Assembly: GCA_029884335.1 (NCBI GenBank)
Contig: JAOUIA010000012.1
Coordinates: 1 to 64,000, forward strand
Origin: Betaproteobacteria bacterium
Lineage (GTDB): Bacteria > Pseudomonadota > Gammaproteobacteria > Burkholderiales > Casimicrobiaceae
Direction: 5' to 3'
Length of the DNA stretch: 64,000 nucleotides
Position numbers and translations under genes: made by a program. Shown here piece by piece: positions 735 to 64,000 of this stretch (its first letter is position 1; every line of letters begins with the position of its first letter). The notes beneath the pieces are model-generated. The model did no database searches. It saw only the letters and a list, made by a program, of their open reading frames with translations, and was not told the origin of the DNA.

Positions 735-896
735 GAAATGAGGGTCAGACTCGAGTTTCGGGGGAGCGAGGGTCAGACTCGAATTTCCGCAAGCGCCAAG
801 CGTGGGCGCGGCGTCACCGCGCGAAATGCGAGTCTGACCCTCATTTCCGGGGCATGCGAACGGTCGCTCGACCAAAGTCGAGTCTGACCCTACTCT
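735..896. repeat. Cluster of four REP-like repeats (GGGTCAGACTCGA family)
   Basis: Four copies of a roughly 23-bp imperfect palindrome: plus orientation at 735-759 and 766-788, minus orientation at 823-848 and 873-896. The core is GGGTCAGACTCGA with A/T-rich ends (GAAAT or AAAGT at one side, ACTTT or ATTTC at the other) that pair with each other. The same family recurs at 40257-40380 and 56441-56561. The two-plus, two-minus arrangement lets the cluster fold into a larger stem. The last copy contains the TAG stop of aroD (890-892). It probably acts as an mRNA 3' structure between aroD and the RNase gene; no RAYT transposase is present in the window. Confidence 0.85.
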
Positions 897-1663
897 TGGG
901 CGCGGGCGAGCGCGGCGAACACGGCGGCAAGGTCGGCGATCGGCATCTGGCCGGGCGCGGAGGCGCCCTCGCCGATCGCGAACGACAGCGACGAGCCGAA
1001 CACGCCCCCGACCATGCGCGTCGCCACGCCGAGCGGCCCCATCGACATGCTGATCAGCGGGATGCGCGCCTTCGCTTCGGCGACCGCGGTGGCCTCGAGC
1101 AGCGCCAGGACGTCGGCGCGATCGCGCGGCATCGCCGCGACCTTCGCGACGTCGGCGCCGAGCCGGTCCGCCTCGAGGAAGCGGTCGACGAGGAAGTCGC
1201 GGCCGGGCGTGTAGCCGAAGTTGTGGTACGAGAGGATGAGCCGCGCGCCCTGCTCGCGCGAGCGCTCGCGCACGCGGCGCACCAGCGCGGGGGGGTTCGA
1301 CAACTCGAAGTCGAGGAAGTCGAACAGCCCCGCGGCGCCGACGGCGCCGTAGAGCTTCGCGATCCCTTCCGCGTCGAGCGCGATCGGCTGGCCGCCTTCG
1401 TGCGCGGCACGGCAGGTGAAGATGATCGGCGTCTCGCCGGCGGCGGCGCGCAGCGCGCGCCCGGACGCGAGCACGGCCGCGGCGTCGGCGACGCCTTCGA
1501 AGTAGTCGACGCGCCACTCGATCACGTCGGGGCGCTTGCCGAGCACTGCGGCGCTCTCCTCGGCGAGGCGCGTGGCGGTCTTCGCGACCAGCGGCGAGCA
1601 GATCAGCGGCGTCGCACCGCCGAGGCGGCGGCCGCGGACGTCGATCACCTTCTCCTGTTTCAT
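890..1663 (-). CDS. aroD: Type I 3-dehydroquinate dehydratase
   Basis: 257 residues, the usual length for the class I family (beta/alpha barrel, Schiff-base mechanism). The substrate-binding motif EWRVDYF lies at residues 49-55, the catalytic histidine in SYHNF at about 147, and the Schiff-base lysine in DVAKVAAMPR at about 174; the C-terminal SMGPLG segment is also present. It interconverts 3-dehydroquinate and 3-dehydroshikimate in the cytosol. Betaproteobacteria normally use the type II enzyme AroQ for biosynthesis, and class I copies are often tied to quinate catabolism, so a catabolic role is plausible (inference), in line with the other aro-like genes downstream. The TAG stop lies inside a repeat copy, so the last two or three codons are repeat-adjacent. 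Confidence 0.9.
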   Translation of the reverse strand: MKQEKVIDVRGRRLGGATPLICSPLVAKTATRLAEESAAVLGKRPDVIEWRVDYFEGVADAAAVLASGRALRAAAGETPIIFTCRAAHEGGQPIALDAEGIAKLYGAVGAAGLFDFLDFELSNPPALVRRVRERSREQGARLILSYHNFGYTPGRDFLVDRFLEADRLGADVAKVAAMPRDRADVLALLEATAVAEAKARIPLISMSMGPLGVATRMVGGVFGSSLSFAIGEGASAPGQMPIADLAAVFAALARAQE

Positions 1664-1793
1664 CGTCGGTTTCCAGTCCTCGCGCAGCCGGGCACGGCCC
1701 GCGTCATGGCCTGCATTCTATGCGACCCTGGCATGGCGCCCTTCGCCTCCGGGATCGTTGACGCTGCTGATGCAACGGGGTAGCGTCGGCCGC

Positions 1794-2771
1794 ATGGATC
1801 GCCGGCAGGTCATTGCTTCGGGCTTCGCGGCTGCGCTCCTCGCGCGCGGCGCGTACGCCGCCCCGCGATCCGGTGCGCGCGTCGGCTACCTCGAGTTCGT
1901 CAGCGCTCCCGACGGCGAGATGCTGTACCGGGATTTCGTCGAGGGACTGAAGAAGCACGGCTACGCCGAAGGCCGGAACCTGACCATCGTGCGCCGCTCT
2001 GCCGGCAATGCGAACGAGCGCCTGCCCGCGATGGCCGCGGAGCTGGCGGCGGCACGCGTGGAAGTGATCCTTGCCGCCTCTTCGGATGCGGCGCGCGGCG
2101 CGAAGTCCGGCGCGCCGAAGACGCCGACCGTCTTCGTGATGGGAGGGAACCCGGTCCTGGAAGGGCTGGTGACGAGCCTGTCCCGGCCCGGGGGTCAGCT
2201 CACCGGCATCGTCACGCAAGGCGAAGACCTCACCGCGAAGCGGCTCCAGCTGCTCAAGGAGGCTTTTCCCGCAATCCGCACGGTGGCGGTCGTGGGGTCG
2301 CCGCTCGCGCTGTCGCGCAGCGCCTACGACGACGCGGCGCAACGCCTGCAGCTGAGTGTCGTTGCATTGCGCCTCGTGGATCACAGCGATTTCCGCGACG
2401 TCGCCGCGACGATAGGTCGCGGCGCCGCGGATGCGGTGCTCGTCGTCGACGACGCCGACGCGGTGGCCGGCGTCTACAGTTACGCGAAGGTGCTGATGGC
2501 GACCCGCCGGCCGGTGATGTTCAACTCCGACGTGTTCGTCGAAGCCCACGGCCTGATGGCCTACGGCGCCAGCCTCCGCCAACAGTACCGTCGCGCCGCA
2601 GGCATCGTCGCGCAGCTCCTGGAGGGCGCGAAGGCCGCGCAGGTTCCCGTCCAGATGCCCGCGGGTTACGAGCTCTGGTTCAACCGCCGGGCCGGCGAGG
2701 AGTTCTCGATCGAGCTGCCGCGCGAGGTCCAGACGCGCGGCCAGGAGATCAACTCGCGCACGCTCGACTGA
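1794..2771 (+). CDS. ABC transporter substrate-binding protein, TrpX/ABC_sub_bind family
   Basis: 325 residues. Residues 1-22 form a signal peptide (MDRRQVIASG, hydrophobic stretch, cleavage near AYAAP). The mature part has the layout of PF04392-type binding proteins: 'ARVGYLEF', a GLKKHGYAEGRN helix, 'EVILAASSDAARGAK', the 'SRPGGQLTGI' loop, and a C-terminal FNRRAGEEFSIELP segment. Longer upstream in-frame codons exist, but the signal peptide begins at the ATG at 1794. No permease or ATPase lies next to it, so it is an orphan in this window. Ligand unknown; members of this family bind aromatic amino acids or other aromatic acids. It converges on the Gfo/Idh gene with a 17-bp gap. Confidence 0.8.
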   Translation: MDRRQVIASGFAAALLARGAYAAPRSGARVGYLEFVSAPDGEMLYRDFVEGLKKHGYAEGRNLTIVRRSAGNANERLPAMAAELAAARVEVILAASSDAARGAKSGAPKTPTVFVMGGNPVLEGLVTSLSRPGGQLTGIVTQGEDLTAKRLQLLKEAFPAIRTVAVVGSPLALSRSAYDDAAQRLQLSVVALRLVDHSDFRDVAATIGRGAADAVLVVDDADAVAGVYSYAKVLMATRRPVMFNSDVFVEAHGLMAYGASLRQQYRRAAGIVAQLLEGAKAAQVPVQMPAGYELWFNRRAGEEFSIELPREVQTRGQEINSRTLD

Positions 2772-2788
2772 CCGCGCCGCAGCGCGGG

Positions 2789-3841
2789 TCACAACCCCGG
2801 CAGCTCGACGACGCGTCCCGTGCTCGCGGCCTGCGCGATCGCCTCGGTGACGCGCAGGTTCGCGAGCCCGTCGCGCACGCTCACCCGGGGCGCGACCTCG
2901 CCGCGGGCCACGGCGCCGAAGTGCTCCATCTGGAGGGCCAGCGGGTCCTCGCGCACGACGTCGACCACGCCGGTCTCGTAGGGCTTCCACCACGAGCGGC
3001 CCTCTTCGCTGGCGTAGCGCTTGACGCGCATCGTCGGGATCGACAGCGAGCCGACCGTGCCGGCGATCACGTAGCAGTCCTCGTCCGCGTACGTCGGGTA
3101 CGCCGGGTTCTCGCGCGAGGTCTGTTCCCAGTTGCGGGCGCAGGCCGCGGTGTCGGAGAGCATGAACGTGCCCAGCGCCCCGCCCGCGAAGCGCAGGCTG
3201 ATCGCGACCGTGTCCTCGACCGGGAAGCCGCGCACCGCCCGCGAGGCGATCGCCTGCACCGCGACGATCTCGCCGCACAGCATGCGCAGGCTGTTGACCT
3301 CGTGGATCATGTTGATGAGGATCGGCCCGCCTCCGGGCTCCCGCCGCCACGGGCCGTCGTCGAAGTAGTGGTCGGGCTTGAGGAACACCGCGCTGCCCAT
3401 CGCCGCGACGATGCGCCCCAGGCGCCCTTCGTCGATCACCTGCTTCGCGCGGACCATGATCGGGCTGTGCGCGCGATGGTGGCCGACCAGCGCCCGCGCC
3501 CGCTTCGCCTCGACGGCCGCGAGCAGCCGCTCGCCCTCGGCCACGGTGGGGGCGACCGGCTTTTCTACCAGCACGGCCACGCCCGCGTCGATGCAGCGCA
3601 ACGCCTGCTCGACGTGCACCTGGTTGGGCGTGGCGAGCACGACGCCGTCGACTTCGGCCGCCGCGAACATCGCATCCAGCGTGGGGTACAGCGGCACGCC
3701 CGCGCGCTGCGCCTCCTCGCGCGCCGCCGGCGCGGGATCGACGACCGCGCACAGCGCGCACGTGGGGCTGCGCAAGGCGATGCCGATGTGCGTACGGCCG
3801 ATCAGCCCGGCGCCGGCGACTGCAATGCGCGTCTTCGCCAT
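2789..3841 (-). CDS. Gfo/Idh/MocA family NAD(P)-dependent oxidoreductase
   Basis: 350 residues. N-terminal Rossmann domain with the dinucleotide motif GAGLIGRTHIG near residue 10 and the family's EKP motif in VLVEKPVAP; the C-terminal alpha/beta domain carries 'GGGPILINMIHEVNSLRMLCG', equivalent to the H-containing catalytic helix of inositol-dehydrogenase-type enzymes. It would oxidise a sugar, cyclitol or similar alcohol. I chose the ATG at 3841 because the Rossmann strand MAKTRIAVAG starts there; an upstream ATG would read through the repeat. It follows dctM on the same strand across two tandem 82-bp repeats, so it is probably in the TRAP transporter operon and acts on the imported substrate. 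Confidence 0.85.
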   Translation of the reverse strand: MAKTRIAVAGAGLIGRTHIGIALRSPTCALCAVVDPAPAAREEAQRAGVPLYPTLDAMFAAAEVDGVVLATPNQVHVEQALRCIDAGVAVLVEKPVAPTVAEGERLLAAVEAKRARALVGHHRAHSPIMVRAKQVIDEGRLGRIVAAMGSAVFLKPDHYFDDGPWRREPGGGPILINMIHEVNSLRMLCGEIVAVQAIASRAVRGFPVEDTVAISLRFAGGALGTFMLSDTAACARNWEQTSRENPAYPTYADEDCYVIAGTVGSLSIPTMRVKRYASEEGRSWWKPYETGVVDVVREDPLALQMEHFGAVARGEVAPRVSVRDGLANLRVTEAIAQAASTGRVVELPGL

Positions 3842-3844
3842 GTC

Positions 3845-4008
3845 AGTGGCGCCGGGCCGTCCCAAGCCACTGACCCGCCCCCCCGGGGGGCAGCGAACGA
3901 AGTGAGCGTGGGGGTCGTTTCATCCTAGTGGCGCCGGGCCGCCCCAAGCCACTGACCCGCCCCCCCGGGGGGCAGCGAACGAAGTGAGCGTGGGGGTCGT
4001 TTCATCCT
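3845..4008. repeat. Two tandem copies of an 82-bp intercistronic repeat
   Basis: Near-identical units at 3845-3926 and 3927-4008, differing at a single base that I can see. Each contains a GC-only palindrome (CCCCCCGGGGGG), the block GCGAACGAAGTGAGCG and an end block reading TAGGATGAAACGACC on the minus strand. A shorter relative lies at 28081-28166 and an inverted variant inside 7190-7265. On the minus strand the module runs from the stop codon of dctM (4007-4009) to ACTGACATG, where ATG starts the next gene. I know this repeat type from Burkholderiales intergenic regions, where it may act as a processing or termination structure. Confidence 0.9.
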
Positions 4009-5308
4009 AGCCCTTGTAGCCCAGCAGACGGGGCAGCCAGAGGGTGAGGTCGGGCACGAGCGTGATCAACGCCAGCGCGCCGAACATCACGTAGAGGAAC
4101 GGCATCACCTCGCGCACCATGTCGCGCAAGGACACGTCCGCGATCTTCGTCATCATGAACAGCAGCAGGCCATAGGGCGGCGTGACCAAGCCTAGCATGA
4201 TGTTGACGACGGCCATCACGCCGAAGTGCACCGGGTCGATCCCCAGCGCCTGCGCCGTCGGGAGCATCACCGGCAGAATGACGAGAATGATCGTCGTCCC
4301 CTCGAGGAAGCACCCGAGGACCAGCAGCGTGAGGTTGACGAACAGCAGGAACGTCAGCGGCGAGAGCTCGTACGCCTGCAGCATCGCACTCAGCGTCCTG
4401 GGGATGTTCTCCGACGTGATGACGAAGTTGAACACCATCGCCCCGGCGATCAGCATGCCGAGCGACACGGTGACGCGCGCGCTGGTGGTGAGCGAGTGGT
4501 AGACGTCCTTCCAGCCGACCGTGCGATAGAGCAATGCGGACACGAGCAGCGCGTACAGCGCGGCCACCGCGGCGGCCTCGGTCGGCGTGGTGACGCCGCT
4601 GTAGAGGCAGCCGAGCAGGATCACGGGCATCAGCAGCGCGGGCAGGGCCTGCCAGGTGATGCGCGGCAGTTCCCGCAGCGCCACCTTCTCCTCGATCGGG
4701 AAGTTGCGGCGCCTGGCCGCGAGCGCGATCAGCGCCATCTGCACGACGCCCAGCAGCAATCCGGGAACGATGCCGCCCAGGAACAGGTAGCCGACAGACG
4801 TGTCCGAAACCAGCGCGTAGAGGACCAGCGGGATCGACGGCGGGACGATCGGACCGATGACGGACGACACGCAGGTCAGCGCGGCGGCGAACGCGGGCGT
4901 GTACTTGCCGTCCCGCGTCATCAGCGACTGCATCAGCTTGCCGGAGCCGGCCGCGTCGGCGAGTGCGGAGCCCGACATGCTGGCGAAGATGATGCTCTGC
5001 ACGACGTTGACCTGCGCGAGCCCGCCGCGGAAGCGCCCCACGATCGCGTTGCAGAAGCGCAGCAGCCTGTCCATGATGCTGCCGGCGTTCATGAACTCGG
5101 CAGCCAGGATGAACAGGGGGATCGCCAGCAGCAGCTGGCTGCTCATCATGCCGTTCAGCAGTTGCTCGGCCGCGGTGCCCATGTCGCGACCGGCGAGGAA
5201 GAGCCACAGGATCGAGCCGCCGATCATGGCGTGGCCGACCGGCAGTCCGAGCAGGCTCAGGCCGACGATGGCGATCAGCGCCAGGGAGAATGGACTGGTC
5301 AGGTTCAC
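4007..5308 (-). CDS. dctM: TRAP transporter large permease subunit (DctM)
   Basis: 433 residues, the normal DctM length, almost entirely hydrophobic with about 12-13 predicted membrane helices. Family landmarks are 'LGLPVGHAMIGGSILWLFLAG' near the N-terminus, 'SGSALADAAGSGKLM', 'GPIVPPSIPLVLYA', 'TPTEAAAVAALYALL' and 'LGCFLEGTTIILVILPV'. It is the ion-coupled translocating subunit of a tripartite (TRAP) importer for a carboxylate-type solute. The start is GTG at 5308, overlapping the dctQ stop as GTGA, which signals translational coupling. The TAG stop coincides with the border of the 82-bp repeat. Together with dctP and dctQ it forms a complete transporter. Confidence 0.93.
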   Translation of the reverse strand: MNLTSPFSLALIAIVGLSLLGLPVGHAMIGGSILWLFLAGRDMGTAAEQLLNGMMSSQLLLAIPLFILAAEFMNAGSIMDRLLRFCNAIVGRFRGGLAQVNVVQSIIFASMSGSALADAAGSGKLMQSLMTRDGKYTPAFAAALTCVSSVIGPIVPPSIPLVLYALVSDTSVGYLFLGGIVPGLLLGVVQMALIALAARRRNFPIEEKVALRELPRITWQALPALLMPVILLGCLYSGVTTPTEAAAVAALYALLVSALLYRTVGWKDVYHSLTTSARVTVSLGMLIAGAMVFNFVITSENIPRTLSAMLQAYELSPLTFLLFVNLTLLVLGCFLEGTTIILVILPVMLPTAQALGIDPVHFGVMAVVNIMLGLVTPPYGLLLFMMTKIADVSLRDMVREVMPFLYVMFGALALITLVPDLTLWLPRLLGYKG

Positions 5309-6965: not shown

Positions 6966-7312
6966 AGGGCCTGTTCACGCTATGGCCGCGCGCGCGAGCG
7001 GGCCCATGGGCGTGTCCATCGCGACGCTCGCCGCCGCGAAGACCGGGTGTCTTCGCAAGGCGAGCAACAATGAGGGGCGCGCCCAGGGGCCCGCTCCCTC
7101 CGGGTTGCGGCTGGAAAGGCCATGCGCGGTGTTGCGAAGCCTCGCCGGGTTCCCGACCCGCCTTCGACTTCGCGCCTGCTTGCACGGCCCCCACGCTCCC
7201 TACGTTCGCTGCCCCCCCGGGGGGCTGGTCAGTCCCTCGGGGCGGCCCTTCGGGACTGGCATGGCCTTTCCGGCTTCGCAACGCGCACGTGTCCATAGCG
7301 TGAACAGGCCCT
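6966..7312. mobile_element. MITE-like element with 20-bp perfect terminal inverted repeats
   Basis: AGGGCCTGTTCACGCTATGG at 6966-6985 is repeated in perfect inverted form at 7293-7312, bounding 347 bp without a credible gene. The interior has further inverted pieces (GGAAAGGCCATG near 7110 against CATGGCCTTTCC near 7258; GTTGCGAAGCC near 7132 against GGCTTCGCAAC near 7272) and an inverted variant of the 82-bp repeat family at about 7190-7265. Flanks read TCA on the left and TAA on the right, possibly an imperfect 3-bp TNA target duplication of the IS5/IS1031 type (weak). The element fills the whole tetR-dctP gap, and its outer end overlaps the tetR stop. Confidence 0.65.
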
Positions 7313-7985
7313 AACCGGCCGGCTGCGGCCCGAGCCATTGCAGGATGATGTCCGCGACCATGGCGCGGCGGCGATCCACGTCCCCCTTCGCCCCCATCGG
7401 GCGCTGGAAAAGGGATCCGAACGTGTACTGATTGGTGACGTTGAACATGCCCAGCGCGGCGATCGCCATGTGCACGTCGATCGGGTCGGCGTCGGCGCGG
7501 AAGTCGCCGCGCGCCTGCCCGCGCGCGATGACGCGGCCCAGCATCTCGACGATCGGCCGGTTGACGGTGCGCAGCGCATGGGAGCGCTTCATGTGGCGGC
7601 CCTTCGCCTGGTTCTCGGCGACGACCAGCCGCACGAAGTCCTCGTGGTCGACGTAGTAGTCGTAGGTGAACTCGACGATGCGGCGGATGGCCTCGACCGG
7701 CTCGAGGTTCTCGACGTCGAGCCCGCTCTCCGCCTCGCGGATGTCCGCGTACACGCGCTCGAGCACCGCGAGGTACAGCGGCTCCTTGCCGCGGAAATAG
7801 TAATTGATCATCGCGCGCGTGGTGTTCGTGCGCGCGGCGATCGCGTCCATGCTGGCGCCGTCGTAGCCGCGCGAAGCGAACTCCGCGACGGCCGCGGCGA
7901 GGATGCGCGCGCGGTTCGCCTCCGGCGCCTTGGGCTTGCGCATCGCGGTGCTGCGGCCGGGGGAGAGCTGGACGGACGTCGCCAC
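7311..7985 (-). CDS. TetR/AcrR family transcriptional regulator
   Basis: 224 residues from GTG at 7985, or 210 from ATG at 7943. The N-terminal helix-turn-helix is clear: 'RARILAAAVAEFASRGYDGASMDAIAARTNTTRAMINYYF' in outline, the standard TetR arrangement. The C-terminal ligand domain contains 'IVEFTYDYYVDHEDFVRLVVAEN' of the RutR/TetR_C type. I favour GTG because AAGAGG lies 6 nt upstream of it, while the ATG has no visible Shine-Dalgarno. It is divergent from the acyl-CoA dehydrogenase (gap about 170 bp) and upstream of dctPQM on the same strand, so it could control either. The TAG stop overlaps the inverted repeat of the adjacent element. Confidence 0.85.
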   Translation of the reverse strand: MATSVQLSPGRSTAMRKPKAPEANRARILAAAVAEFASRGYDGASMDAIAARTNTTRAMINYYFRGKEPLYLAVLERVYADIREAESGLDVENLEPVEAIRRIVEFTYDYYVDHEDFVRLVVAENQAKGRHMKRSHALRTVNRPIVEMLGRVIARGQARGDFRADADPIDVHMAIAALGMFNVTNQYTFGSLFQRPMGAKGDVDRRRAMVADIILQWLGPQPAG

Positions 7986-26256: not shown

Positions 26257-28080
26257 TCAGGACTTGGCCGGCGTGCCGGTCGCCACGTGGTGCACCTTCC
26301 GGCCCGGCGAATAGATGTCCATGATGTTCCAGTGCCCGGCGGTGGGCACCGGTTCGTTCTGCATCTCGACGTCGATCACCACCGGCTTGCCCGACTTGAT
26401 CGCCTTCTCGAGCGCGGGCCGGAACTCGGCGGCCGAGCGTACCTTCACCCCGTCGACGCCGTAGGCGCGCGCGATCGCCGCGTAGTCGGGCGAGTACGGC
26501 TTGCCGTCCTTCTCGAACACCGTGGCGAACGTGGTGCCGAAGTGGGCCTTCTCGAGCCCGGCGATCGTCCCGAACGCGAAGTTGTTCATGATCACCCACA
26601 CCACGGCGATGTCCGCCTCGAACGCCGTGGCGAGCATCGCCGGGTTCTGCCCGAAGCCGCCGTCGCCCACCAGCGCGACGACGACGCGGTCGGGCCGCGC
26701 GACCTTGGCACCGAGCGCCGCCGGCGCGCCGAAGCCCATCGTCGCGTACCCGCCGGGGGTGAAGATCGTGCCCGGCTCGAGGATGGGGAACTGCTGCCCG
26801 ACGCCGTTCTTGTTCCAGCCCACGTCGGTGGTGATGAGCGCGTCGCGCGGCAGCGCCGCGCGCACGTCGGCCAGGATGCGCTCGGGGCGCATGGGCCACG
26901 CGGCGCTCGTCGCGTGCGCCAGGTTGCCGGCGACGAAGGCCTTGCGCGCGGCGGCGATCTCCGCGACCGCCTCGGGGCGCTTCACGCCCTGCGGCGCCAG
27001 CGCCTTCGCGGCGCGGGTCAGCGCAGCAAGCGCCTGCTTGAGATCGGCGACCGCGCCGATCTCGACCGGGTAGTTGCGGCCGATCTCGGCAGGGTCGATG
27101 TCGATGTGGATGAGCTTCGAGGGCGGGAAGCTGAACGTGTACTCCGACTCCCACGAGCTGCAGTCCGCCTCGGAGAACCGGGTGCCGACGCCGAGGATCC
27201 AGTCGGCGCCGCGCGTCTTCTCGTTGATGAACTTCGTGCCCCAGAAGCCCGTCATGCCGAGCACCAGCGGGTGGTCGTCGGGCAGCGCGCCCTTGCCCAT
27301 CAGCGTGTGCGCGACCGGCAGCTGCAGGTGGTCGACGAGCTCGGCGAGCTCGCGCGTGGCGTGGGCGAGCATGACGCCGCCGCCGGCGTAGAGCACCGGC
27401 CGCTTCGCCTCCAGCAGCTTGCGCACGATCGCGGTCGCGGTCGCCTCGTCCAGCGAGGGCTTCGCGAGCGCCTTGGAGTTGAGCCGCAGCCGCTCGAAGC
27501 GCGCGACGTCGACATCGCGGCTGAAGACGTCCATCGGCACGTCGACCAGCACCGGGCCCGGACGCCCGCTCTCGGCGAGCGCGAACGCCTTCTCGATGAT
27601 CTCGGGGAACAGGTCCGGCGAGTCGACGCGCCACGCACGCTTGACGAACGGCCGGTAGATCTCGTACTGCGAAGCGTCGGCGTGCAGGTTCACTTCCTGG
27701 TGCGGATGCTTGCCGAAATAGTGCGTCGGCACGTCGCCGGCGATCACCACCATCGGGATCGAGTCCAGCGCGGCGTTGGCCACGCCGGTCGCCGCATTCG
27801 TGAGGCCGGGCGACAGGTGCGACAGCAGCACCGACGTCCCGCCCGAGGCGCGCGCGTAGCCGTCGGCCATGTGCGCGGCGATCTGCTCGTGGCGCGTGTT
27901 CACGAACGTGATCTTCGTGCTCTTCGACAGCGCGGCCAGCACGGCGATGTTCGTGTGGCCGCACAGGCCGAACACGTGCTTCACTCCGCGCGCCTCGAGA
28001 TAGCGGACCAGCTGGTTGGCGACGGTGTCGCGCGTCGCGACGTGGCCGGCGGGGCGGGTGGTCTTGGTGTCGTCGGGCAT
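26257..28080 (-). CDS. Thiamine diphosphate-dependent enzyme, acetolactate synthase-like
   Basis: 607 residues with the three ThDP-fold domains: N-terminal PYR domain carrying the activating Glu in NTRHEQIAAHMADGYARA (about residue 65), a central TPP_enzyme_M domain, and a C-terminal PP domain with the ThDP/Mg motif GDGGFGQNPAMLATA ending in NN. The usual GxxG turn is FGLCGHTN, different from acetolactate synthase. Family members are ligases, decarboxylases, or ring-opening hydrolases such as IolD. Beside an acylating aldehyde dehydrogenase, it probably releases or transfers a C-C fragment to give an aldehyde (inference). The ATG at 28080 abuts the intercistronic repeat. Confidence 0.85.
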   Translation of the reverse strand: MPDDTKTTRPAGHVATRDTVANQLVRYLEARGVKHVFGLCGHTNIAVLAALSKSTKITFVNTRHEQIAAHMADGYARASGGTSVLLSHLSPGLTNAATGVANAALDSIPMVVIAGDVPTHYFGKHPHQEVNLHADASQYEIYRPFVKRAWRVDSPDLFPEIIEKAFALAESGRPGPVLVDVPMDVFSRDVDVARFERLRLNSKALAKPSLDEATATAIVRKLLEAKRPVLYAGGGVMLAHATRELAELVDHLQLPVAHTLMGKGALPDDHPLVLGMTGFWGTKFINEKTRGADWILGVGTRFSEADCSSWESEYTFSFPPSKLIHIDIDPAEIGRNYPVEIGAVADLKQALAALTRAAKALAPQGVKRPEAVAEIAAARKAFVAGNLAHATSAAWPMRPERILADVRAALPRDALITTDVGWNKNGVGQQFPILEPGTIFTPGGYATMGFGAPAALGAKVARPDRVVVALVGDGGFGQNPAMLATAFEADIAVVWVIMNNFAFGTIAGLEKAHFGTTFATVFEKDGKPYSPDYAAIARAYGVDGVKVRSAAEFRPALEKAIKSGKPVVIDVEMQNEPVPTAGHWNIMDIYSPGRKVHHVATGTPAKS

Positions 28081-28166
28081 GTCAGTTCCGATGGGCCGTC
28101 CCGAGGGACTGACCCGCCCCCTCCGGGGGCAGCGAACGAAGTGAGCGTGGGGGTCGTTTCATCCTA
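28081..28166. repeat. Single copy of the intercistronic repeat (82-bp family)
   Basis: Same family as 3845-4008: it has the GCGAACGAAGTGAGCG block and, read on the minus strand, begins TAGGATGAAACGACC at the stop of the citrate synthase-like gene (28164-28166) and ends ACTGACATG, with ATG the start of the ThDP gene. It therefore spans the gap exactly from stop codon to start codon, with no ordinary Shine-Dalgarno visible before the ThDP start. Central GC palindrome is shorter than in the 3.9-kb copies. Confidence 0.88.
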
Positions 28167-29030
28167 ATCTCGCTTGGTCGCACCGCGCATCGCGAACGCA
28201 TCGGGCAGGTCGCGCCGCGCCGGGCCGCTGTACTTGAACGGGATGGCGGGCGGCATCGGCCCCATGATCCGGCGGCCGCGCTGCTTCTGCTCCCACGCAT
28301 GGGCGAGGATGCCGACCGAGCGCGAGAGGATGAAGAGGCCGCGGCCGAGCTCCGGCTCGAAGCCCAGCTCGCAGAAGATCACGGCGGTGATGCCGTCGAT
28401 GTTCATCGGGATCAGCTTGCCCTTGTGCGCCTTCAGGGCTTCCTCGACGGCGCGGCCGATGCGCGCGTAGCGGCCGCCGATCGCGCCCGCGGCCTGAGCA
28501 CGCTGCAGCAGTGCGTACAGCGGCGCGACGCGCGGATCGACCGGGTGGAAGCGGTGGCCGAAGCCGGGCATGATCTTCTCGCCTTCGGCGCGGTGCTTCG
28601 CGAGCACGGAGGCCGCCGCCGCGACGAGGTCGCCGTCGGGACCCGCGAGCGCGTCGATCTCGCGATAGCGCTCCATGCACTGCTGGCCGGCGCCGCCGTG
28701 GATGTCGTCGAGCACGTTGATCGCCGAGGCCATCGCGCCGTTGACCGGCAGGCCGCAGGTCACCGCCATGCGCGAGATCGCGATCGACGGCGCGTGCGGG
28801 CCGTGGTCCACGCCCGGCACCAGCGCGGCCTCGAGCAGCTCCGCCTGGTCGGGCGCGGGCAGCTCGCCCCGCAGCATCAGCCAGATCATCTCGGGGAAGC
28901 GCACGCGGCCGATCAGCTGCTCGACCGGGTAGCCGCGGATGTCGATCTGCCCCGGGTGGATGTCGATGATCGACGTGTCCCACCACGCGGAGGCGTCGGC
29001 GATCGTCTGGTCGGCGGTCCGTTCGGTCAT
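28164..29030 (-). CDS. Citrate synthase-like protein (citryl-CoA lyase type)
   Basis: 288 residues, about 100 shorter than full citrate synthase. The citrate synthase signature is present as GFGHRFHPVDPR with the catalytic His, preceded by 'GLPVNGAMASAINVLDDIHGGAGQQCMERY' (the second His region in DIHGGAG). The short form is known from citryl-CoA lyase-like proteins, which cleave a 3-hydroxy-3-carboxyacyl-CoA into acetyl-CoA and a keto acid or run the reverse. Together with the acylating aldehyde dehydrogenase upstream, it could process an acyl-CoA made by that enzyme. Start ATG at 29030. Its TAG stop is the first three bases of the repeat. Confidence 0.83.
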   Translation of the reverse strand: MTERTADQTIADASAWWDTSIIDIHPGQIDIRGYPVEQLIGRVRFPEMIWLMLRGELPAPDQAELLEAALVPGVDHGPHAPSIAISRMAVTCGLPVNGAMASAINVLDDIHGGAGQQCMERYREIDALAGPDGDLVAAAASVLAKHRAEGEKIMPGFGHRFHPVDPRVAPLYALLQRAQAAGAIGGRYARIGRAVEEALKAHKGKLIPMNIDGITAVIFCELGFEPELGRGLFILSRSVGILAHAWEQKQRGRRIMGPMPPAIPFKYSGPARRDLPDAFAMRGATKRD

Positions 29031-39446: not shown

Positions 39447-40258
39447 ACCGCCGCCGCGTCGCGGCCGCGTTCCTCGCAACTGCGCTCGCGCTCGGCGCGC
39501 AGGCACAGGAGAAGTCGATCGTCGTCGCGTCCACGACTTCGACCGAGCAGTCGGGGCTGTTCGGCCACATCCTGCCGGCATTCGCGAAGAGCACCGGCAT
39601 CGCTGTGCGGGTGGTGGCCCTCGGCACCGGCCAGGCGCTCGACGTCGGCCGCCGCGGGGACGCCGACGTGGTGTTCGTGCACGACAGAGCCGCCGAGGAC
39701 AGGTTCGTCGCCGAGGGCTACGGCGTCGACCGTCGCGACGTCATGTACAACGACTTCGTGCTGATCGGCCCGAAGTCGGATCCGGCGAAGGTCGCCGGCG
39801 GCAGGGACGTCGCCGCGGCGCTCAAGGCCATCGCCGCCGCGAGGGCGCCGTTCGTCTCGCGGGGCGACAAGAGCGGCACGCACGCGGCGGAGCTGCGCTA
39901 CTTCAAGGACGCCGGCGTCGATCCGGGCGAGGGCAAGGGCTCGTGGTACCGCGAGACGGGCTCCGGCATGGGCCCGGCGCTCAACACCGCGTCGTCGATG
40001 AACGCCTACGTCCTCGCCGACCGCGGCACGTGGCTCGCGTTCCGCAACCGCGGCGAGCTTCGCATCGTCGTCGAGGGCGACACCAGGATGTTCAACCCCT
40101 ACGGCGTCATCCTGGTCAATCCGGCGAAGCACCCGCACGTGAAGCAAGCCGAGGGCCGCGCGTTCATGGACTGGATCGTCGCCGCCGAAGGGCAGGCCGC
40201 GATCGCGGGCTATAAGGTCGGCGGCGAGCAGCTTTTCTTCCCGGACGCGAAGCGCTGA
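39437..40258 (+). CDS. tupA: Tungstate-binding periplasmic protein
   Basis: 273 residues with a signal peptide (MALNRRRVAAAFLATALALG, cleaved near AQAQE). The mature protein opens with the TupA hallmark VVASTTSTEQSGLF, which supplies oxyanion-binding Thr/Ser residues, then 'ALGTGQALDVGRRGDADVVFVHD', 'FVSRGDKSGTHAAELRYF' and 'WYRETGSGMGPALNTASSMNAYVLADRGTW'. High-affinity tungstate receptor in the periplasm. Its TGA stop overlaps a degenerate REP-like repeat. Confidence 0.93.
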   Translation: MALNRRRVAAAFLATALALGAQAQEKSIVVASTTSTEQSGLFGHILPAFAKSTGIAVRVVALGTGQALDVGRRGDADVVFVHDRAAEDRFVAEGYGVDRRDVMYNDFVLIGPKSDPAKVAGGRDVAAALKAIAAARAPFVSRGDKSGTHAAELRYFKDAGVDPGEGKGSWYRETGSGMGPALNTASSMNAYVLADRGTWLAFRNRGELRIVVEGDTRMFNPYGVILVNPAKHPHVKQAEGRAFMDWIVAAEGQAAIAGYKVGGEQLFFPDAKR

Positions 40259-40380
40259 AATGAGGGTCGGAGTCGCATTTCGCCAGTCCGCGGAAAAGTA
40301 GGGTCAGACTCGACTTTCCAGATGCGCCAAGGACAGGCCGACGGTCGTGGCGGGAAAGTCGAGTCTGACCCTACTTTTCC
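40257..40380. repeat. REP-like repeat: one degenerate copy plus a 28-bp inverted pair
   Basis: A degenerate copy (GAAATGAGGGTCGGAGTCGC) at 40257-40281 is followed by perfect 28-bp inverted arms at 40292-40319 and 40353-40380 with a 33-bp loop. Each arm contains GTAGGGTCAGACTCGAC. The structure lies between convergent tupA and the 5'-nucleotidase gene and would form a strong hairpin in either transcript. The right arm supplies the TAG stop and the last two codons of the nucleotidase gene. Same family as 735-896 and 56441-56561. Confidence 0.9.
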
Positions 40381-41273
40381 TCGTTGGCGACGCCGTGCGG
40401 CACGTGGCCCGCGGGCACGTGGCGCGAGGCGCTCTCGACGTGACGCGTCTGGTCGTCGAAGTAGAAGTCGGGCTCGAACTCGCGCAGGAACGGCCCCTTC
40501 TCGAGGCCGCCGAGGAACATCGCCTCGTCGATCGCGATGTTCCAGTCCATCAGCGTGCGGATGGCGCGCTCGTGCGCCGGCGCGCTGCGCGCCGTCACCA
40601 GCGCGGTGCGCAGCTTCATGCGGCCCGCCTTCGAGTCGACCTGCAGGCGGTGCAGCGCCTCGAGCAGCGGCTTGAACGGTCCCGGCGGCAGCGGCCGCTC
40701 GGCGTGCCGCGCCTCGTGGCTCTGGAACGCGGTGAGCCCCTCCGACTGGTAGACGCGCTCGGCCTCGTCGGCGAACAGCACAGCGTCGCCGTCGAACGCA
40801 ATGCGCACTTCCTCCGTGTGCGAGTCCTCGGTCGGCGAGTGCGTGTAGACCAGCGCCGCGGGGAAGCCGGCCGCAAGCGCCGCGCGCACGTCCTCGGCGT
40901 TCGCCGACAGGAACAGGTTCGCCGCGAGCGGCGACAGGTAGCTGTACGGCGCGCGGCCGCGCGTGAAGACGCCGCGCTCGATCGGCAGGGAGGCGCCGCG
41001 CACCGAGCGGAACACGCGCAGTCCGGACACCGGGTCGTTGCGCGACAGGATGACCACCTCGACGCGCTTCGCCTGCGGCGTGTTGAACGCGAGAAGCTTG
41101 CGCACCAGGCGATAGGCGACCCCGGGCTTCGCCGGCTGCTCGATCCGCTCGAGCTGCAGGCCCATGTAGGCGCGGTCGTCCGCGGTCTCGAAGACCTGGT
41201 TCTCCTCCTCGAAGTCGAACAGCGCGCGCGAGCTGATCGCGACGACGAGCTGGTCGGCGAGCGAGGCGGGCAT
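40371..41273 (-). CDS. Cytosolic 5'-nucleotidase (PF06189-like)
   Basis: 300 residues. Characteristic pieces: 'LVVAISSRALFDFEEENQVFE' (first strand with the phosphatase-like Asp region), 'AYRLVRKLLAFNTPQAKRVEVVILSRNDPVSGLRVFRSV', 'RIAFDGDAVLFADEAERVYQSEGL', 'TALVTARSAPAHERAIRTLMDWNI' and 'ALFLGGLEKGPFL'-like 'EAMFLGGLEKGPFL'. This is the bacterial relative of vertebrate cN-I, hydrolysing nucleoside 5'-monophosphates. ATG at 41273. The C-terminal residues EEK and the stop are encoded in the repeat arm. Apparently a single gene. Confidence 0.88.
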   Translation of the reverse strand: MPASLADQLVVAISSRALFDFEEENQVFETADDRAYMGLQLERIEQPAKPGVAYRLVRKLLAFNTPQAKRVEVVILSRNDPVSGLRVFRSVRGASLPIERGVFTRGRAPYSYLSPLAANLFLSANAEDVRAALAAGFPAALVYTHSPTEDSHTEEVRIAFDGDAVLFADEAERVYQSEGLTAFQSHEARHAERPLPPGPFKPLLEALHRLQVDSKAGRMKLRTALVTARSAPAHERAIRTLMDWNIAIDEAMFLGGLEKGPFLREFEPDFYFDDQTRHVESASRHVPAGHVPHGVANEEK

Positions 41274-49080: not shown

Positions 49081-49333
49081 GGGCCCTCACCCCCGGCCCC
49101 TCTCCCGCGCCGCGGGAGAGGGGGGAGACACTCTCCCCTCGCCCACCGTCAGGTGGGAGAGGGGCCGGGGGTGAGGGCGCCTTCTCCCCTCGCCCACCGT
49201 CAGGTGGGAGAGGGGCCGGGGGTGAGGGCGCCATCTCCCCTCGCCCACCGTCAGGTGGGAGAGGGGCCGGGGGTGAGGGCGCCATCTCCCCTCGCCCACC
49301 GTCAGGTGGGAGAGGGGCCGGGGGTGAGGGCAG
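49081..49333. repeat. Tandem array of a 51-bp repeat (CCCTCACCCC / GGTGGGCGAGGGG family)
   Basis: The unit starting GAGAGGGGCCGGGGG occurs at 49157, 49208, 49259 and 49310, a 51-bp period with almost no divergence, preceded by a variant unit from 49081. Each unit contains an inverted pair, CCCTCACCCCCGGCC against the AGGTGGGAGAGGGG side, so each can fold. Because 51 is a multiple of 3, all six frames stay open across it. It belongs to the widespread GGGTGAGGG intergenic family, also at 55491-55524 and 59449-59585. It separates mpl from the esterase gene. Confidence 0.92.
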
Positions 49334-50734
49334 CTACGCGACCGCACGATCGGCCTGCCCCGCAAGCCGCGCGAGCAGCTTCGCGTGCACGTCGCCGAAG
49401 CCGCCGTTGCTCATCACCAGCACGTGGTCGCCGGCGCGCGCGAAGGCGACGATCGCCGCGACCATCGCGTCCAGGTCGTCGTGCACCGAGAAGCGGTAGC
49501 CCAGCGGCGCGAGGGCCTCGCGCGGATCCCACTCCAGGGCCTTCGCGTAGCAGAACACGTGGTCGGCCTCGGCAAGGCTGCCCGGCAGCAGCGCCTTCAT
49601 CGCGCCGAGCTTCATCGTGTTCGAGCGCGGCTCGAGCACGGCGACGACGCGCTGCGCGCCCACGCGGCGGCGCAGGCCCGCGATCGTGGCGGCGATAGCG
49701 GTGGGATGGTGCGCGAAGTCGTCGTACACGGTGACGTCCCTGGCGACGCCGCGCACCTCCATGCGCCGGCGCACGCCGCGGAAGCTTGCGAGCGCGGTGA
49801 GGCTCACGTCCACCGGCACGCCGGCGTGCCGGGCCGCGGCGATCGCGGCCAGCGCGTTGAGGCGGTTGTGGCGGCCCGCGAGCGGCGCGTCGGCGAGCCA
49901 GCGCACGTGGCCCTGCGGCGCGCCCGCGTGCGTCACCTTGCCGTCGGCGGCGACGCGCCACTCCGCCGGCGGTCCCTCGCCGCTGGCGATCTCGGCGCCG
50001 GCGAAGCGCTCCACGCCCGACCAGCAGCCGCGCGCGAGCACGCGTGCGAGCGCGGGCTCCTCGGCGTTGACGACGATCTTCCCCGCGGCGGGAATCGTGC
50101 GCACGAAGTGGTGGAACTGCGTCTCGATCGCGGCGAGGTCGGGGAAGATGTCGGCGTGGTCGAACTCGAGGTTGTTGAGGATCGCCGTGCGCGGCCGGTA
50201 GTGGACGAACTTCGAGCGCTTGTCGAAGAACGCGGTGTCGTACTCGTCGGCCTCGATGACGAAGAACGCGCTGTCCGAGTGGCGCGCCGAGACGCCGAAG
50301 TCGAGCGGCACGCCGCCGATGAGGAAGCCGGGAGCGAGCCCAGCGTGCTCGAGGATCCACGCCAGCATCGACGCCGTCGTCGTCTTGCCGTGCGTTCCGG
50401 CCACCGCGAGCACGTGGCGGCCGGCGAGCGCGTGATCGCGCAGCCACTCCGGCCCCGACGCGTACGGCAGGCCGCGGTCGAGGATCGCCTCGATCGCCGG
50501 CATGCCGCGGACGATCGCGTTGCCGACGACGAAGAGGTCCGCGCCCGCCGCCTCGCCGTCGAGCTGCTCGGCGCCGTAGCCCTCGACGAGCGCGATGCCC
50601 AGCGCGCGCAGCTGCGTCGACATCGGCGGGTAGACGTTGGCGTCGCAGCCGGTGACCTTGTGGCCGGAGGCCTGCGCGATGGCCGCGAGCCCGCCCATGA
50701 ACGTGCCGCAGATGCCGAGGACGTGGATGTGCAT
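49334..50734 (-). CDS. mpl: UDP-N-acetylmuramate:L-Ala-gamma-D-Glu-meso-DAP ligase
   Basis: 466 residues, the normal Mpl size. N-terminal 'HIHVLGICGTFMGGLAAIAQASGHKVTGCDANVYPPMS' is diagnostic for Mpl versus MurC. ATP site AGTHGKTTTASML, 'VIEADEYDTAFFDKRSKFVHYRP', 'LNNLEFDHADIFPDL' and 'RMEVRGVARDVTVYDDFAHHPTAI'. It recycles the murein tripeptide in the cytosol. Start ATG at 50734. Confidence 0.95.
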   Translation of the reverse strand: MHIHVLGICGTFMGGLAAIAQASGHKVTGCDANVYPPMSTQLRALGIALVEGYGAEQLDGEAAGADLFVVGNAIVRGMPAIEAILDRGLPYASGPEWLRDHALAGRHVLAVAGTHGKTTTASMLAWILEHAGLAPGFLIGGVPLDFGVSARHSDSAFFVIEADEYDTAFFDKRSKFVHYRPRTAILNNLEFDHADIFPDLAAIETQFHHFVRTIPAAGKIVVNAEEPALARVLARGCWSGVERFAGAEIASGEGPPAEWRVAADGKVTHAGAPQGHVRWLADAPLAGRHNRLNALAAIAAARHAGVPVDVSLTALASFRGVRRRMEVRGVARDVTVYDDFAHHPTAIAATIAGLRRRVGAQRVVAVLEPRSNTMKLGAMKALLPGSLAEADHVFCYAKALEWDPREALAPLGYRFSVHDDLDAMVAAIVAFARAGDHVLVMSNGGFGDVHAKLLARLAGQADRAVA

Positions 50735-56318: not shown

Positions 56319-56440
56319 GGGGACTTGCCAGCGCTTTGCCACATTTCCCCGCCGCCTTGCCCGATTGGCGCCCGCGCTTGGCACCAATCGCGGCGCGGAA
56401 TGCGATCCGTGGCGCTCCGGCAGCCGGCGCGGGGCCCAGG

Positions 56441-56561
56441 GGAAAGTAGGGTCAGACTCGACTTTCCCAGCGGGAAGCGGGAGCGGACGAAAGTCGAGTC
56501 TGACCCTACTTTCCCAGCGGGAAGCGGGAGCGGACGAAAGTCGAGTCTGACCCTACTTTTC
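56441..56561. repeat. Three REP-like repeats with a 47-bp tandem duplication
   Basis: One plus copy at 56441-56467 and two minus copies at 56489-56515 and 56536-56561, all with GTAGGGTCAGACTCGAC or its complement. The spacer-plus-repeat starting CCCAGCGGGAAGCGG is duplicated at 56466 and 56513 (47-bp period). It lies in the 370-bp divergent region between pdsR and the sortase target gene; the rest of this gap holds the palindrome at 56283 and no gene. Confidence 0.9.
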
Positions 56562-58735: not shown

Positions 58736-59451
58736 GCGCCGCGATGGACGCGATGGGCGGACGCGGGAGGACCGGAAGCCGCGGCAGCGTCCTGGCGCTC
58801 GCGTTCGCGGAGTCGGAGGGCGCAGCGCCGGGGACCGAGCTGCGTCTTCCGGCACGCGCGACCGCGCGCGGCGCAAGCAGCCGGCGCGCGCTCGTCGCGC
58901 TGGCCGTCCTCTGCGCGATCCTCGCCGCGTGGCACGGCGGGCAGGCGGCCTACCTGCACGCGAAGGCGGCGCTCGGGCAGTGGCTGCTGTCGCGTGCGTG
59001 GGACGAAGCCCGGGCCCGCGGCGTCGCCGCAAAGCCCTGGCCGTGGGCCGACACGCGCCCGGTCGCCCGGCTCACGGCGCCTGCGCACGGCGTGGACCTG
59101 CTCGTGCTCGATGGCGCGAGCGGCCGCACGCTTGCGTGGGGCCCCGCCCATGTCGCGGGCACGACCGCCCCCGGCGCGGCAGGCAACGCGATCGTCACCG
59201 GCCACCGCGACACGCACTTCGCGTTCCTGCGCGATCTGCGCGACGGGGATGCTTTGGTCGTCGAGACGGCGGACGGAAGGACGCTTCGCTACCGCGTCGA
59301 GCGCGCGTTCGTCGCCGACCGCACGCAGCTGAAGCTGCCCGCCGACTCGCGCTCGACGACGCTCGCGCTGGTGACGTGCTACCCGTTCGACGCGATCGAC
59401 CCCGGCACGCCGTTGCGCTATGCGGTCGTCGCGCGCGCCGAGGCGCAGTGA
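58732..59451 (+). CDS. Class GN sortase
   Basis: About 239 residues from GTG at 58732, which overlaps the target gene stop as GTGA; ATG at 58744 gives 235. N-terminal cytoplasmic extension of about 45 residues, one membrane helix, then the sortase fold. Numbered from the ATG, the catalytic triad is His154 in TGHRDTHF, Cys212 in VTCYPF and Arg225 in TPLRYAV. It is expected to cleave the LPQTA signal of the preceding protein. Its TGA stop is the first three bases of a repeat shared with the convergent gene. Confidence 0.93.
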   Translation: MSAAMDAMGGRGRTGSRGSVLALAFAESEGAAPGTELRLPARATARGASSRRALVALAVLCAILAAWHGGQAAYLHAKAALGQWLLSRAWDEARARGVAAKPWPWADTRPVARLTAPAHGVDLLVLDGASGRTLAWGPAHVAGTTAPGAAGNAIVTGHRDTHFAFLRDLRDGDALVVETADGRTLRYRVERAFVADRTQLKLPADSRSTTLALVTCYPFDAIDPGTPLRYAVVARAEAQ

Positions 59452-59585
59452 CCCCTCACCCCCGCCCCCTCTCCCGCCTGACGGCCCTCACCCCCGCCCC
59501 CTCTCCCGCCTGACGGCGGGAGAGGGGAGAGAGACACTCCCCTCGCCCCGCGGAAGCGGGGAGAGGGGTCGGGGGTGAGGGGTCA
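59449..59585. repeat. GGGTGAGGG-family inverted repeat with stop codons at both ends
   Basis: TGACCCCTCACCCCCG begins at 59449 (the TGA is the sortase stop), and its near-perfect inverted copy ends at 59585 (the complement TGA is the stop of the hydratase-like gene, 59583-59585). A 39-bp duplication of the left arm (CCCTCACCCCCGCCC at about 59454 and again at about 59485) and an inner inverted pair lie between. The arms pair over about 26 bp and would act on both convergent transcripts. Confidence 0.9.
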
Positions 59586-62486: not shown

Positions 62487-62541
62487 GCGCTTGGCAATAG
62501 GCTGGCCATGACTTACTGTCAGCGAAAGCTTGCCCGGAACT

Positions 62542-63030: not shown

Positions 63031-63073
63031 CCCGTCGAGGCACCGCGGGCAAGCGCACCTGAGTGCCCCACAT

Positions 63074-63164
63074 CGTCGTCCCCGCGAAAGCGGGGACCCA
63101 GCGTCGTTGTAGTGCCGGTCGCGGAACTGAAAGTCACTGGGTTCCCGCCTGCGCGGGAACGACG
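63074..63164. repeat. Inverted pair of REP-like elements (CCCGCnnnnGCGGG family)
   Basis: Copies CGTCGTCCCCGCGAAAGCGG at about 63074-63103 and, inverted, CACTGGGTTCCCGCCTGCGC at about 63135-63164. Each is a hairpin and the two pair with each other over about 30 bp. The right copy encodes the last residues (VVPAQAGTQ) and stop of the M20 gene on the minus strand. Same family as 29047-29122. Confidence 0.9.
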
Positions 63165-64000
63165 AAACGACGCCGCGGCAGCGCGGCCGCCTGATCGCCC
63201 AGGTCCCACCACAGCCCGGCCATGATGGCGAGCGCCTCGCGCACGACAGGTGCGAGCAGGTGCTCGTCCGGCGCGTGCTGGCTGCACGCCGCGTAGCTGT
63301 GCGGCACCCACACCGTGGGGAGCCCGAGGATGTCGGCGAACACGTCGTTGGGCAGCGACCCGCCGAGGTTCGGCAGCAGCGCCGGCGGGCTTCCCGTCGT
63401 GCGCAGGATCGAGTCCTGCGCGAAGCGCACCCACGCGTTGTCCGGATCGAGACGCGTGGCCGCCATGACCACCGGCTCGCTCACGTCGACGTCGCCGAAG
63501 CCGTGCTGCGCGAGGTGGTCGCGCACGACTGCGCGCAACCGCGACACGTCGGTGCCGACCACGAAGCGCATGTGCATCGCCGCCTTCGCCGAGGGCGGGA
63601 TCGCGTTGACCGGGTGATCGGGATTGCCCGCGCGACAGGCGAGCACTTCCAGCGTGTTCCACGCGATCACGCGCTCGGCGGGTGTCAGGCCCGGCTCGCC
63701 CCATTCGGCGTCGACGGCCGGATCGCCGGCGTCGCCGCCGAACGTGAGGCCGGCCAGCGCAGCGCGAACGTTGGCAGGGATCGGGGGCGGGCGCAGCGCG
63801 GGCACGAGGATGCGCCCGCGGCCGTCGACCATGCTCGCGATCGCGTTGGCGAGCACCGTGCCGGGATTGCGCAGCAGTCCGCCCCAGTTGCCCGAGTGGT
63901 GGGCGCCGTCGCGCAGGTCCAGCGACAGGTCGAAGTTGGCCACGCCGCGCGATCCGAGGAAGAGCGTCGGCCGGTCGCGCGATATGCGCGGACCGTCGCT
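63134..64000 (-). CDS. M20-family metallopeptidase, C-terminal part, cut by right edge
   Basis: The frame is open from the right edge to the stop at 63134, at least 289 codons; the first residues in view are SDGPRISRDRPTLFLGSRGV. 'ANFDLSLDLRDGAHHSGNWGGLLRNPGTVL' is the dimerisation-domain start of M20 dipeptidase-like enzymes, with later 'MHMRFVVGTDVSRLRAVV' and 'VWVPHSYAACSQHAPDEHLL' (a metal-binding His of the family is in the last). Zinc ligands of the catalytic domain lie mainly beyond the window. The last nine residues, VVPAQAGTQ, are encoded by the REP-like repeat and are absent from the family, so the original C-terminus was replaced. Confidence 0.85.
   Translation of the reverse strand, partial: SDGPRISRDRPTLFLGSRGVANFDLSLDLRDGAHHSGNWGGLLRNPGTVLANAIASMVDGRGRILVPALRPPPIPANVRAALAGLTFGGDAGDPAVDAEWGEPGLTPAERVIAWNTLEVLACRAGNPDHPVNAIPPSAKAAMHMRFVVGTDVSRLRAVVRDHLAQHGFGDVDVSEPVVMAATRLDPDNAWVRFAQDSILRTTGSPPALLPNLGGSLPNDVFADILGLPTVWVPHSYAACSQHAPDEHLLAPVVREALAIMAGLWWDLGDQAAALPRRRFVVPAQAGTQ

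Follow-up and report, generated by a model that had tools for sequence, protein, structure and literature searches.

Separate repeat families at gene ends in a Casimicrobiaceae genome, among them a putative translational relay

Repeat families at gene ends in the window

We characterized the short repeats that lie at gene ends in a 64,000-base stretch of DNA (the window) from a Betaproteobacteria bacterium of the family Casimicrobiaceae. Five repeat families are present. R1 (GTAGGGTCAGACTC) lies at the 3' ends of aroD, tupA and a 5'-nucleotidase gene, the 82-bp family R2 follows dctM and a citrate synthase-like gene, the inverted-repeat element R5 adjoins tetR, R3 separates a sortase gene from a hydratase-like (FAA-hydrolase-like) gene, and the palindrome R4 is located at the end of an M20-like gene (Table 1). 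Rfam yielded no matches at gathering thresholds within the window.

A preliminary description of this sequence had placed nine gene stops in, or at the first triplet of, these repeats, and our own open reading frame (ORF) caller returned the same nine stops. The repeat itself provides the stop for aroD and the 5'-nucleotidase gene (GTAG of R1) and for dctM and the citrate synthase-like gene (R2), while the tetR stop is composed of a flanking TA and the terminal G of R5. As described, tupA ends at the edge of a degenerate R1 unit and the M20-like gene runs through the R4 palindrome. The TGA stops of the sortase and hydratase genes lie just outside R3, separated from it by one base. The claim that all families begin with TAG or TGA did not hold either, since R3 begins with CCCTCACC and R4 is a palindrome. 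We consider it probable that these are several separate elements, each placed at gene ends for reasons of its own: R1 as a repetitive extragenic palindrome (REP) doublet forming a hairpin (REPIN), R2 as a relay, R5 by its location at TA, R3 by abutting stops and R4 without relation to them.

Table 1. Repeats and adjoining genes in the window
Feature	Position	Strand	Remark
R1 REP block, 4 units	735..897		minus-strand edge is the TAG stop of aroD at 890-892
aroD, type I 3-dehydroquinase (PF01487)	890..1663	-	protein end ...ARAQE
Gene starting at R2 terminal ATG	2789..3841	-	joined to dctM by two tandem R2 copies
R2 copy 2	3839..3927	-	ATG, 26-codon ORF, TGA C ATG; last ATG is the start of gene 2789-3841
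R2 copy 1	3921..4009	-	TAG (dctM stop) G ATG, 26-codon ORF, TAG G ATG of copy 2
dctM (PF06808)	4007..5308	-	stop TAG 4007-4009 is the first triplet of R2
R5 inverted-repeat element (GGGCCTGTTCACGCTATGG ends) beside TA	6967..7311		TA plus terminal G is the tetR stop 7311-7313
Diverged R2 copy nested in R5	7175..7263	+	directly before GCATGG of R5, outside any called gene start
Gene whose ATG is the last R2 triplet	26257..28080	-	
R2 single copy	28078..28166	-	fills the stop-to-start gap between 28164-29030 and 26257-28080
Citrate synthase-like gene (PF00285)	28164..29030	-	stop TAG 28164-28166 is the first triplet of R2
Degenerate R1 unit	40252..40282	+	tupA stop 40256-40258 at unit edge
R1 REPIN, inverted pair	40294..40378		minus-strand edge is the TAG stop of the 5'-nucleotidase gene, 40371-40373
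5'-nucleotidase (PF06189)	40371..41273	-	ends ...ANE-EK; EK-TAG from repeat
R3 array, 51-bp tandem units	49084..49330		stop of gene 49334-50734 lies 3 nt outside
Additional R1 block	56434..56561		edges face gene 5' ends
R3 block between sortase (stop 59449-59451) and FAA-hydrolase-like gene (stop 59583-59585)	59453..59581		supplies neither stop
R4 palindrome TTCCCGCCTGCGCGGGAA	63142..63159		read through by M20-like gene 63134-63943

The window comprises the first 64,000 bases of contig C111 of genome G000 (3,659,727 bp in 120 contigs, 95.6% complete). Copies of each family were located in this genome by pattern, and the surroundings of the listed copies were examined in 133 stretches. For R2 and R5 the copy lists are full for the patterns used. 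R1 and R3 are represented by the first 100 of 126 and the first 100 of 124 rows, such that the derived counts describe large samples and not full sets. The R4 palindrome gave 134 strand hits at 67 places, 50 of which were used to pick stretches. Genes were called with our own codon-model ORF caller, whose start calls hinge on the scoring rule.

R2, a putative stop-plus-restart cassette between co-directional genes

An R2 copy carries a head TAG-G-ATG that lies on the stop of the upstream gene, an ORF of 26 codons, and a tail TGA-C-ATG whose last ATG starts the next co-directional gene. Where the head lacks the TAG, the upstream stop is often a TGA within the ATGA of the element, or a TAG or TGA directly preceding the ATG. 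At the dctM junction R2 makes stop-start contact at both its ends. The length of the DctM protein is the same in 11/11 relatives, all of which stop with TGA where TAG is used here. Relatives G001 and G008 have the downstream gene (2789-3841 in the window) after dctM as well, but no R2 in between, and the ATG of that gene overlaps the dctM stop (ATGA, TGATG). R2 thus occupies a junction at which the stop and the start overlap in these two relatives. An exact filled/empty pair of R2 at a gene was not found.

We then counted the gene context of 48 R2 blocks (22 from this genome, 16 from relatives and 10 from other replicons). For this genome and its relatives, blocks less than 250 nt from a stretch end, blocks without a called gene on both sides and duplicates were left out. 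The stretches from relatives had been picked by R2 similarity or came incidentally from other searches; gene context at R2 played no part in their choice. Blocks located between genes on the element's own strand accounted for 42 of the 48 (p=5e-12 against an expectation of 0.39), and for 32 of the 38 from this genome and its relatives. Among these 32 co-directional blocks the upstream stop lay within -8..+5 nt of R2 in 22. The downstream start coincided exactly with the R2 ATG in 16 and lay within -5..+10 in 22, and in 15 blocks both stop and start were in range. Given its placement between genes of one direction and the start codon that most often forms its end, R2 appears to be a stop-plus-restart cassette.

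The internal ORF has exactly 26 codons in 27 of the 36 full-length copies with an ATG head. The distance from the head to the conserved core is 14 nt in 23 copies (17 of them with 26 codons), 15 nt in 5 (4), 13 nt in 6 (4) and 12 nt in 2 (2). Heads shifted by +1, -1 and -2 nt thereby keep the 26 codons in 4/5, 4/6 and 2/2 copies, using three internal frames. Keeping the codon number across these distances indicates that length and openness of the ORF are preserved while the peptide changes frame. A Shine-Dalgarno-like motif (GGAG, GAGG, AGGA or AAGG) was found at 0/16 R2-linked starts of the genus compared to 205/565 starts of this genome.

The 3' end of R2 forms a stem that includes the TGA and terminates immediately upstream of the ATG. 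For the 25 of 50 listed copies that have gap-free tails, its positions pair in 86.6% of the cells. Covariation was seen as 22 cells changed on both sides of the stem compared to 10.0 in shuffles, with 0/500 shuffles as high.

R2 in other genera and its relation to mycobacterial repeats

Matches to R2 occur in 14 plasmid or second-replicon records, namely from Burkholderia (5), Paraburkholderia (4), Variovorax (3), Azoarcus (1) and Acidovorax (1). We examined ten of them (Burkholderia, Paraburkholderia and Variovorax), three of which come from close relatives and represent one and the same sdh locus. Every one of the ten copies lies between same-strand genes; the upstream stop is within -8..+5 nt in 9/10, and in 8/10 the downstream gene begins on the R2 ATG (offset -3 or -2). 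Public annotation agrees with this arrangement in Variovorax WDL1, where the gnd stop is the first and the zwf start the last R2 triplet, the head here being GTG. In Variovorax PBL-E5 the upstream stop lies three bases before R2, and an ATP-binding cassette (ABC) transporter gene starts on the last R2 triplet. No R2-like element in Burkholderiales was named in the literature that we searched on repeats with stops, starts or coupling, which is not proof of its absence from print.

Mycobacterial interspersed repetitive units (MIRUs) are located between genes of the same direction and occur in tandem arrays. R2 is like them in that it lies between co-directional genes and is oriented with them in 42/48 blocks. 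Further features are described in a review (PMC12548453): MIRUs insert at start codons, and their internal ORF is coupled to the next gene at -4 nt. Within that description, R2 shares with MIRUs the short repeat, the short ORF joined to the start of the next gene and the apparent mobility. It differs by its occurrence in Burkholderiales, by a spacing of mostly +1 (TGA-C-ATG) instead of -4 and by the covarying terminal hairpin. We do not file R2 as a MIRU because the spacing differs.

We read R2 as a translational relay that may work like MIRUs. A ribosome that finishes the upstream gene on the head of R2 (TAG-G-ATG, or ATGA) would restart at the R2 ATG, translate the 26 codons through the GC-rich hairpins and end at the TGA. 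It would then restart one base past the TGA, at the ATG of the next gene. Insertion of R2 at an operon junction would thereby keep both genes coupled. The coupling, the actual re-initiation and the insertion at ATG are inferred. The wider proposal, that R2 is a mobile relay family across Burkholderiales that inserts at start codons, carries a frame-buffered ORF and a stem melted by the ribosome, leaves coupling intact and represents an independent invention of the MIRU strategy, is tentative, its chances falling a little short of even. If the coupling is real, R2 would be a repeat that evolved to near-invisibility for operon translation, with a MIRU-like design and a different spacing. It could also serve as a natural stop-restart linker. 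In this respect R2 matters more than R1. R2 is likely a new variant; R1 represents a known phenomenon.

R1 is a REPIN that often supplies stop codons

R1 is a REP/REPIN and presumably the non-autonomous partner of the one REP-associated tyrosine transposase (RAYT, Y1 type) detected in the genome. Its exact core is found 126 times genome-wide, the reversed control giving 0 hits. At the two positions preceding AGGG, G is found in 94/109 and T in 87/109 units, which provides a GTAG-like head. The units form inverted pairs with the GTAG side outward in 64/67 units that face a 3' end. For the pair at 40294..40378 a hairpin of -54.6 kcal/mol (z -9.7) is predicted. The RAYT is the single Y1_Tnp match in the genome, and inverted R1 copies flank it on both sides (C101:4266 and 5092). 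It scores 42.9 with PF01797, above the cut-off of 23, and 63.5 with NF047646 REP_Tyr_transpos, below the cut-off of 80. The R1 core with at most one mismatch was found at 46/80 RAYT loci from other species. At the RAYT loci of other species (L183-L262), the RAYT stop itself lay -16..+2 nt from the 3' REP (often CGAGTCTGACCC) in 23/24 readable ends.

Fifty R1 blocks provided 67 edges facing gene 3' ends. Two edges inside a long open frame were set aside, as were two blocks at stretch ends, such that 65 edges were counted. At 49 of them a stop lay within -8..+5 nt of the unit: 17 stops were the TAG of GTAG, 3 the TGA of a AAATGAGGG variant, and 29 lay at the repeat edge (-4..+5). Insertion uniform over intergenic DNA would place 7.4% of edges within 0..5, and insertion with equal weight per gap 29.5%. 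Compared to this stricter null of 0.295, 49/65 corresponds to p=3e-14. When the stops inside the repeat were removed, 29/43 edges within -4..+5 remained (p=3e-7). For the 48 blocks with a called gene on both sides, the genes were convergent in 21 cases, co-directional in 25 and divergent in 2. R1 was closer to the stop than to the next start in 18/21 co-directional pairs, pairs with an overlapped start being omitted.

Genes that enter R1 (22) stop at the TAG in 17 cases and at the TGA in 3, while 2 pass the first unit and stop in a later one. The phase test included the 17 GTAG-stopped genes and the 2 running through, omitting the 3 TGA-variant genes and the 2 edges in the long open frame: 17/19 were in the stopping phase (expected one third, p=6e-7). 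Of the 17 GTAG-stopped proteins, 14 have a C-terminus of GK or EK that the repeat encodes. The two proteins that traverse one REP unit and stop in a later one (L033:756-2036 and L039:3-1907) have the tails ...RVRLDFSGTEK and ...GSGSTFRK. A predicted 3.6-kb open frame on another contig of this genome (L082:1606-5211, C68) encloses two R1 blocks and one R3 unit.

Longer C-termini in orthologues, which the preliminary description had suggested to look for, were mostly excluded. The length of HemH is identical in 20/21 relatives, the remaining copy being broken by two internal stops. For gshB the length difference has a median of 0 and a range of -3..+13 residues in 18 complete orthologues of 20, the other two being cut by contig ends. 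In 10/16 relatives the 5'-nucleotidase is two residues shorter than here and lacks the EK that the repeat encodes (the end being mostly ...ANE); in six it is longer than that. AroD is the exception, being 1-2 residues shorter here than in 11/11 relatives. Truncation of proteins by R1 by more than about 2 residues was therefore rejected, as none was seen among the genes tested. The right-hand gene of L123 likewise ends within the variable range of its orthologues, and for the left-hand gene no orthologues were found. REP-like sequence also follows the stops of aroD in G015, of the 5'-nucleotidase gene in G003 and of hemH in G008, such that these sites recur or are shared.

For R1, position, phase and near-constant protein length are direct observations. 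The outward ends read [G/A]AAAGTAG, and a copy inserted in frame about two codons from the native stop would supply a replacement TAG, which would usually be preceded by a repeat-encoded Gly-Lys or Glu-Lys. Selection would remove out-of-frame inserts. The preliminary description had proposed that insertion at 3' ends is favoured by an in-frame stop. This fits the part of R1 that is read in the stopping phase. Since 29 further R1-linked stops lie at the repeat edge, the in-frame stop acts as a filter and accounts for R1 placement only in part.

The phenomenon is already in print. GTAG REPs often give flanking ORFs their TAG stop, and in two species most of the REPs located between convergent genes are at most 20 bp from both (PMC3733652). 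R1 is similar to GTAG REPs and REPINs with RAYTs in its GTAG head, its palindrome, more than 100 copies, inverted pairs, RAYT-flanking copies, location at gene 3' ends and TAG stops (PMC2817692, PMC3733652). The position and phase counts and the orthologue test are added here. Many RAYT relatives of other species have the REP head TGGGGTC, unlike the GTAG of R1. In E. coli, REPs within 15 nt of stop codons lower translation (PMC12306157). R1 resembles them as a hairpin repeat very near stop codons, but in E. coli the stop precedes the REP (PMC12306157), whereas for R1 the repeat itself is often the stop. RU-1 of enterobacteria, likewise small and mobile, joins the 3' end of a gene and removes the native stop. 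R1 is like it in replacing the normal stop, but RU-1 adds about 35 residues in the described amidase case (PMC2759123), whereas R1 shifts the length by about two in the genes tested. Further cases of repeats near stops are described in PMC4692102. What R1 adds is how precisely REPINs can swap native stops with little change in protein length.

R5 lies at TA, R3 abuts stops and R4 is not anchored

R5 has 19-bp inverted ends and is found at nine places in the genome, most ends being preceded by TA. At the left ends of the window copy and of the copy on C56 the flank is CA instead. The terminal inverted repeats (TIRs) and flanking TA are those of a TIR element or miniature inverted-repeat transposable element at TA, and R5 is too short for a transposase gene. 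Including three flanking bases per side it measures 273 or 351-352 nt in this genome. The window copy is 78 bp longer than the usual form due to a nested R2-like copy. Two copies, one of them in the window, carry this insertion of 78-79 bp just before GCATGG (GCATGA in one). Among the copies at window 6967-7311, L278 and L371, two hold the nested R2-like copy, and a copy in G015 holds a GCGCCTT-like tandem run instead.

Ten R5 ends face gene 3' ends, and 6 of them lie at the stop: five stops are TA plus the terminal G (TAG), the sixth is a TAG directly before the element. R5 lies at TA, and this dinucleotide together with the first G of the element makes the stop. TA dinucleotides in the sampled, repeat-enriched DNA numbered 203 in stop codons and 657 in intergenic DNA, from which about a quarter of the tolerated TA sites are expected in stops.

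R3 mostly abuts stops and is a near-miss for supplying them. It starts 0-10 nt past the stop at 38/64 facing ends and within 0..5 at 28/64 (p=0.011), five edges inside called genes having been left out. Only 2/69 facing ends have the used stop within R3 (L094 and L054, the latter being one of the five).

For R4, treated in the same way as R1, 0/71 facing 3' ends had a stop within -8..+5, and the distances are spread with a median of 80 nt. The M20-like gene is the sole read-through among the 71 ends, and its stop at R4 is a coincidence. This gene (63134-63943) matches weakly to a peptidase dimerisation domain only and may be a fragment.

Competing explanations

The suggestion of the preliminary description that the repeats are anchored to gene stops stands for three of the five families and not as a single module. 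A common explanation for all families was rejected, since R4 shows no anchoring and R3 seldom contains the stop. One such explanation is that all families are portable stop-plus-terminator modules kept for ending transcription and translation at 3' ends. The predicted hairpin of the R1 REPIN is very stable, and R1 blocks have only two divergent neighbourhoods among 48, both of which fit this idea. We nevertheless regard it as very improbable, given the co-directional neighbours of R2 and the start codon at the end of most of its copies, and given the behaviour of R3 and R4.

Another possibility is a pure survival filter, in which insertion occurs anywhere, only inserts that spare the protein are seen and short gaps place them by stops. 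Intergenic gaps are indeed short (median 35 nt convergent, 19 nt co-directional), and the phase bias of R1 is as a filter would produce. R1 anchoring, however, exceeds the null built on real gap lengths, with and without the in-repeat stops, R1 lies nearer to the stop than to the next start in co-directional pairs, and R4 in the same genome is not anchored at all. We consider a pure filter unlikely, though clearly less so than terminator modules.

R2 might also be a mere intergenic repeat, its ORF and ATG being by-products of GC-rich sequence and the called start simply the first in-frame ATG after it. High GC content keeps ORFs open, the 26-codon ORF is missing from 9 of the 36 ATG-headed copies, and start calls depend on the scoring rule. 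Opposed to this are the public annotations, which put the zwf and ABC-transporter starts on the R2 ATG, the 27/36 copies that keep exactly 26 codons in several internal frames, and the G001 and G008 junctions, which lack R2 and have the start of the downstream gene on the dctM stop. A by-product origin therefore appears rather improbable, ranking between the two preceding alternatives.

Several observations weigh against our reading of separate elements with R2 as a relay. Ten of the 32 co-directional R2 blocks have no stop within -8..+5 and ten no start within -5..+10. Neither the blocks nor the copies are independent: one sdh locus makes up three of the ten other replicons, and relatedness of the copies reduces the frame-shifted classes to only about four separate cases. 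GGAGG is present shortly before the terminal ATG in some copies from Burkholderia and Paraburkholderia (L373, L378, L382), so that the lack of a Shine-Dalgarno motif is confined to this genus. In the stem test the number of double-changed pairs (6; 104/500 shuffles as high) and of pair types (11; 112/500) was unexceptional, and one R2 copy of the window folds little better than shuffles (z -0.85). For R1, the flanks of edges away from stops contain no target motif, leaving the nearness to stops without a sequence explanation, and R1-like REPs by the RAYTs of other species anchor weakly (15/65 compared to 12.9% at random positions, using a crude ORF rule). The evidence on R5 comprises nine elements.

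Effect of R2 on start calls

R2 can displace start calls, of which annotators should beware. In Paraburkholderia largidicola F2 the succinate dehydrogenase (SDH) assembly factor gene is annotated from L376:1494, ahead of the R2 terminal ATG. As annotated, the protein would begin with R2-encoded residues.

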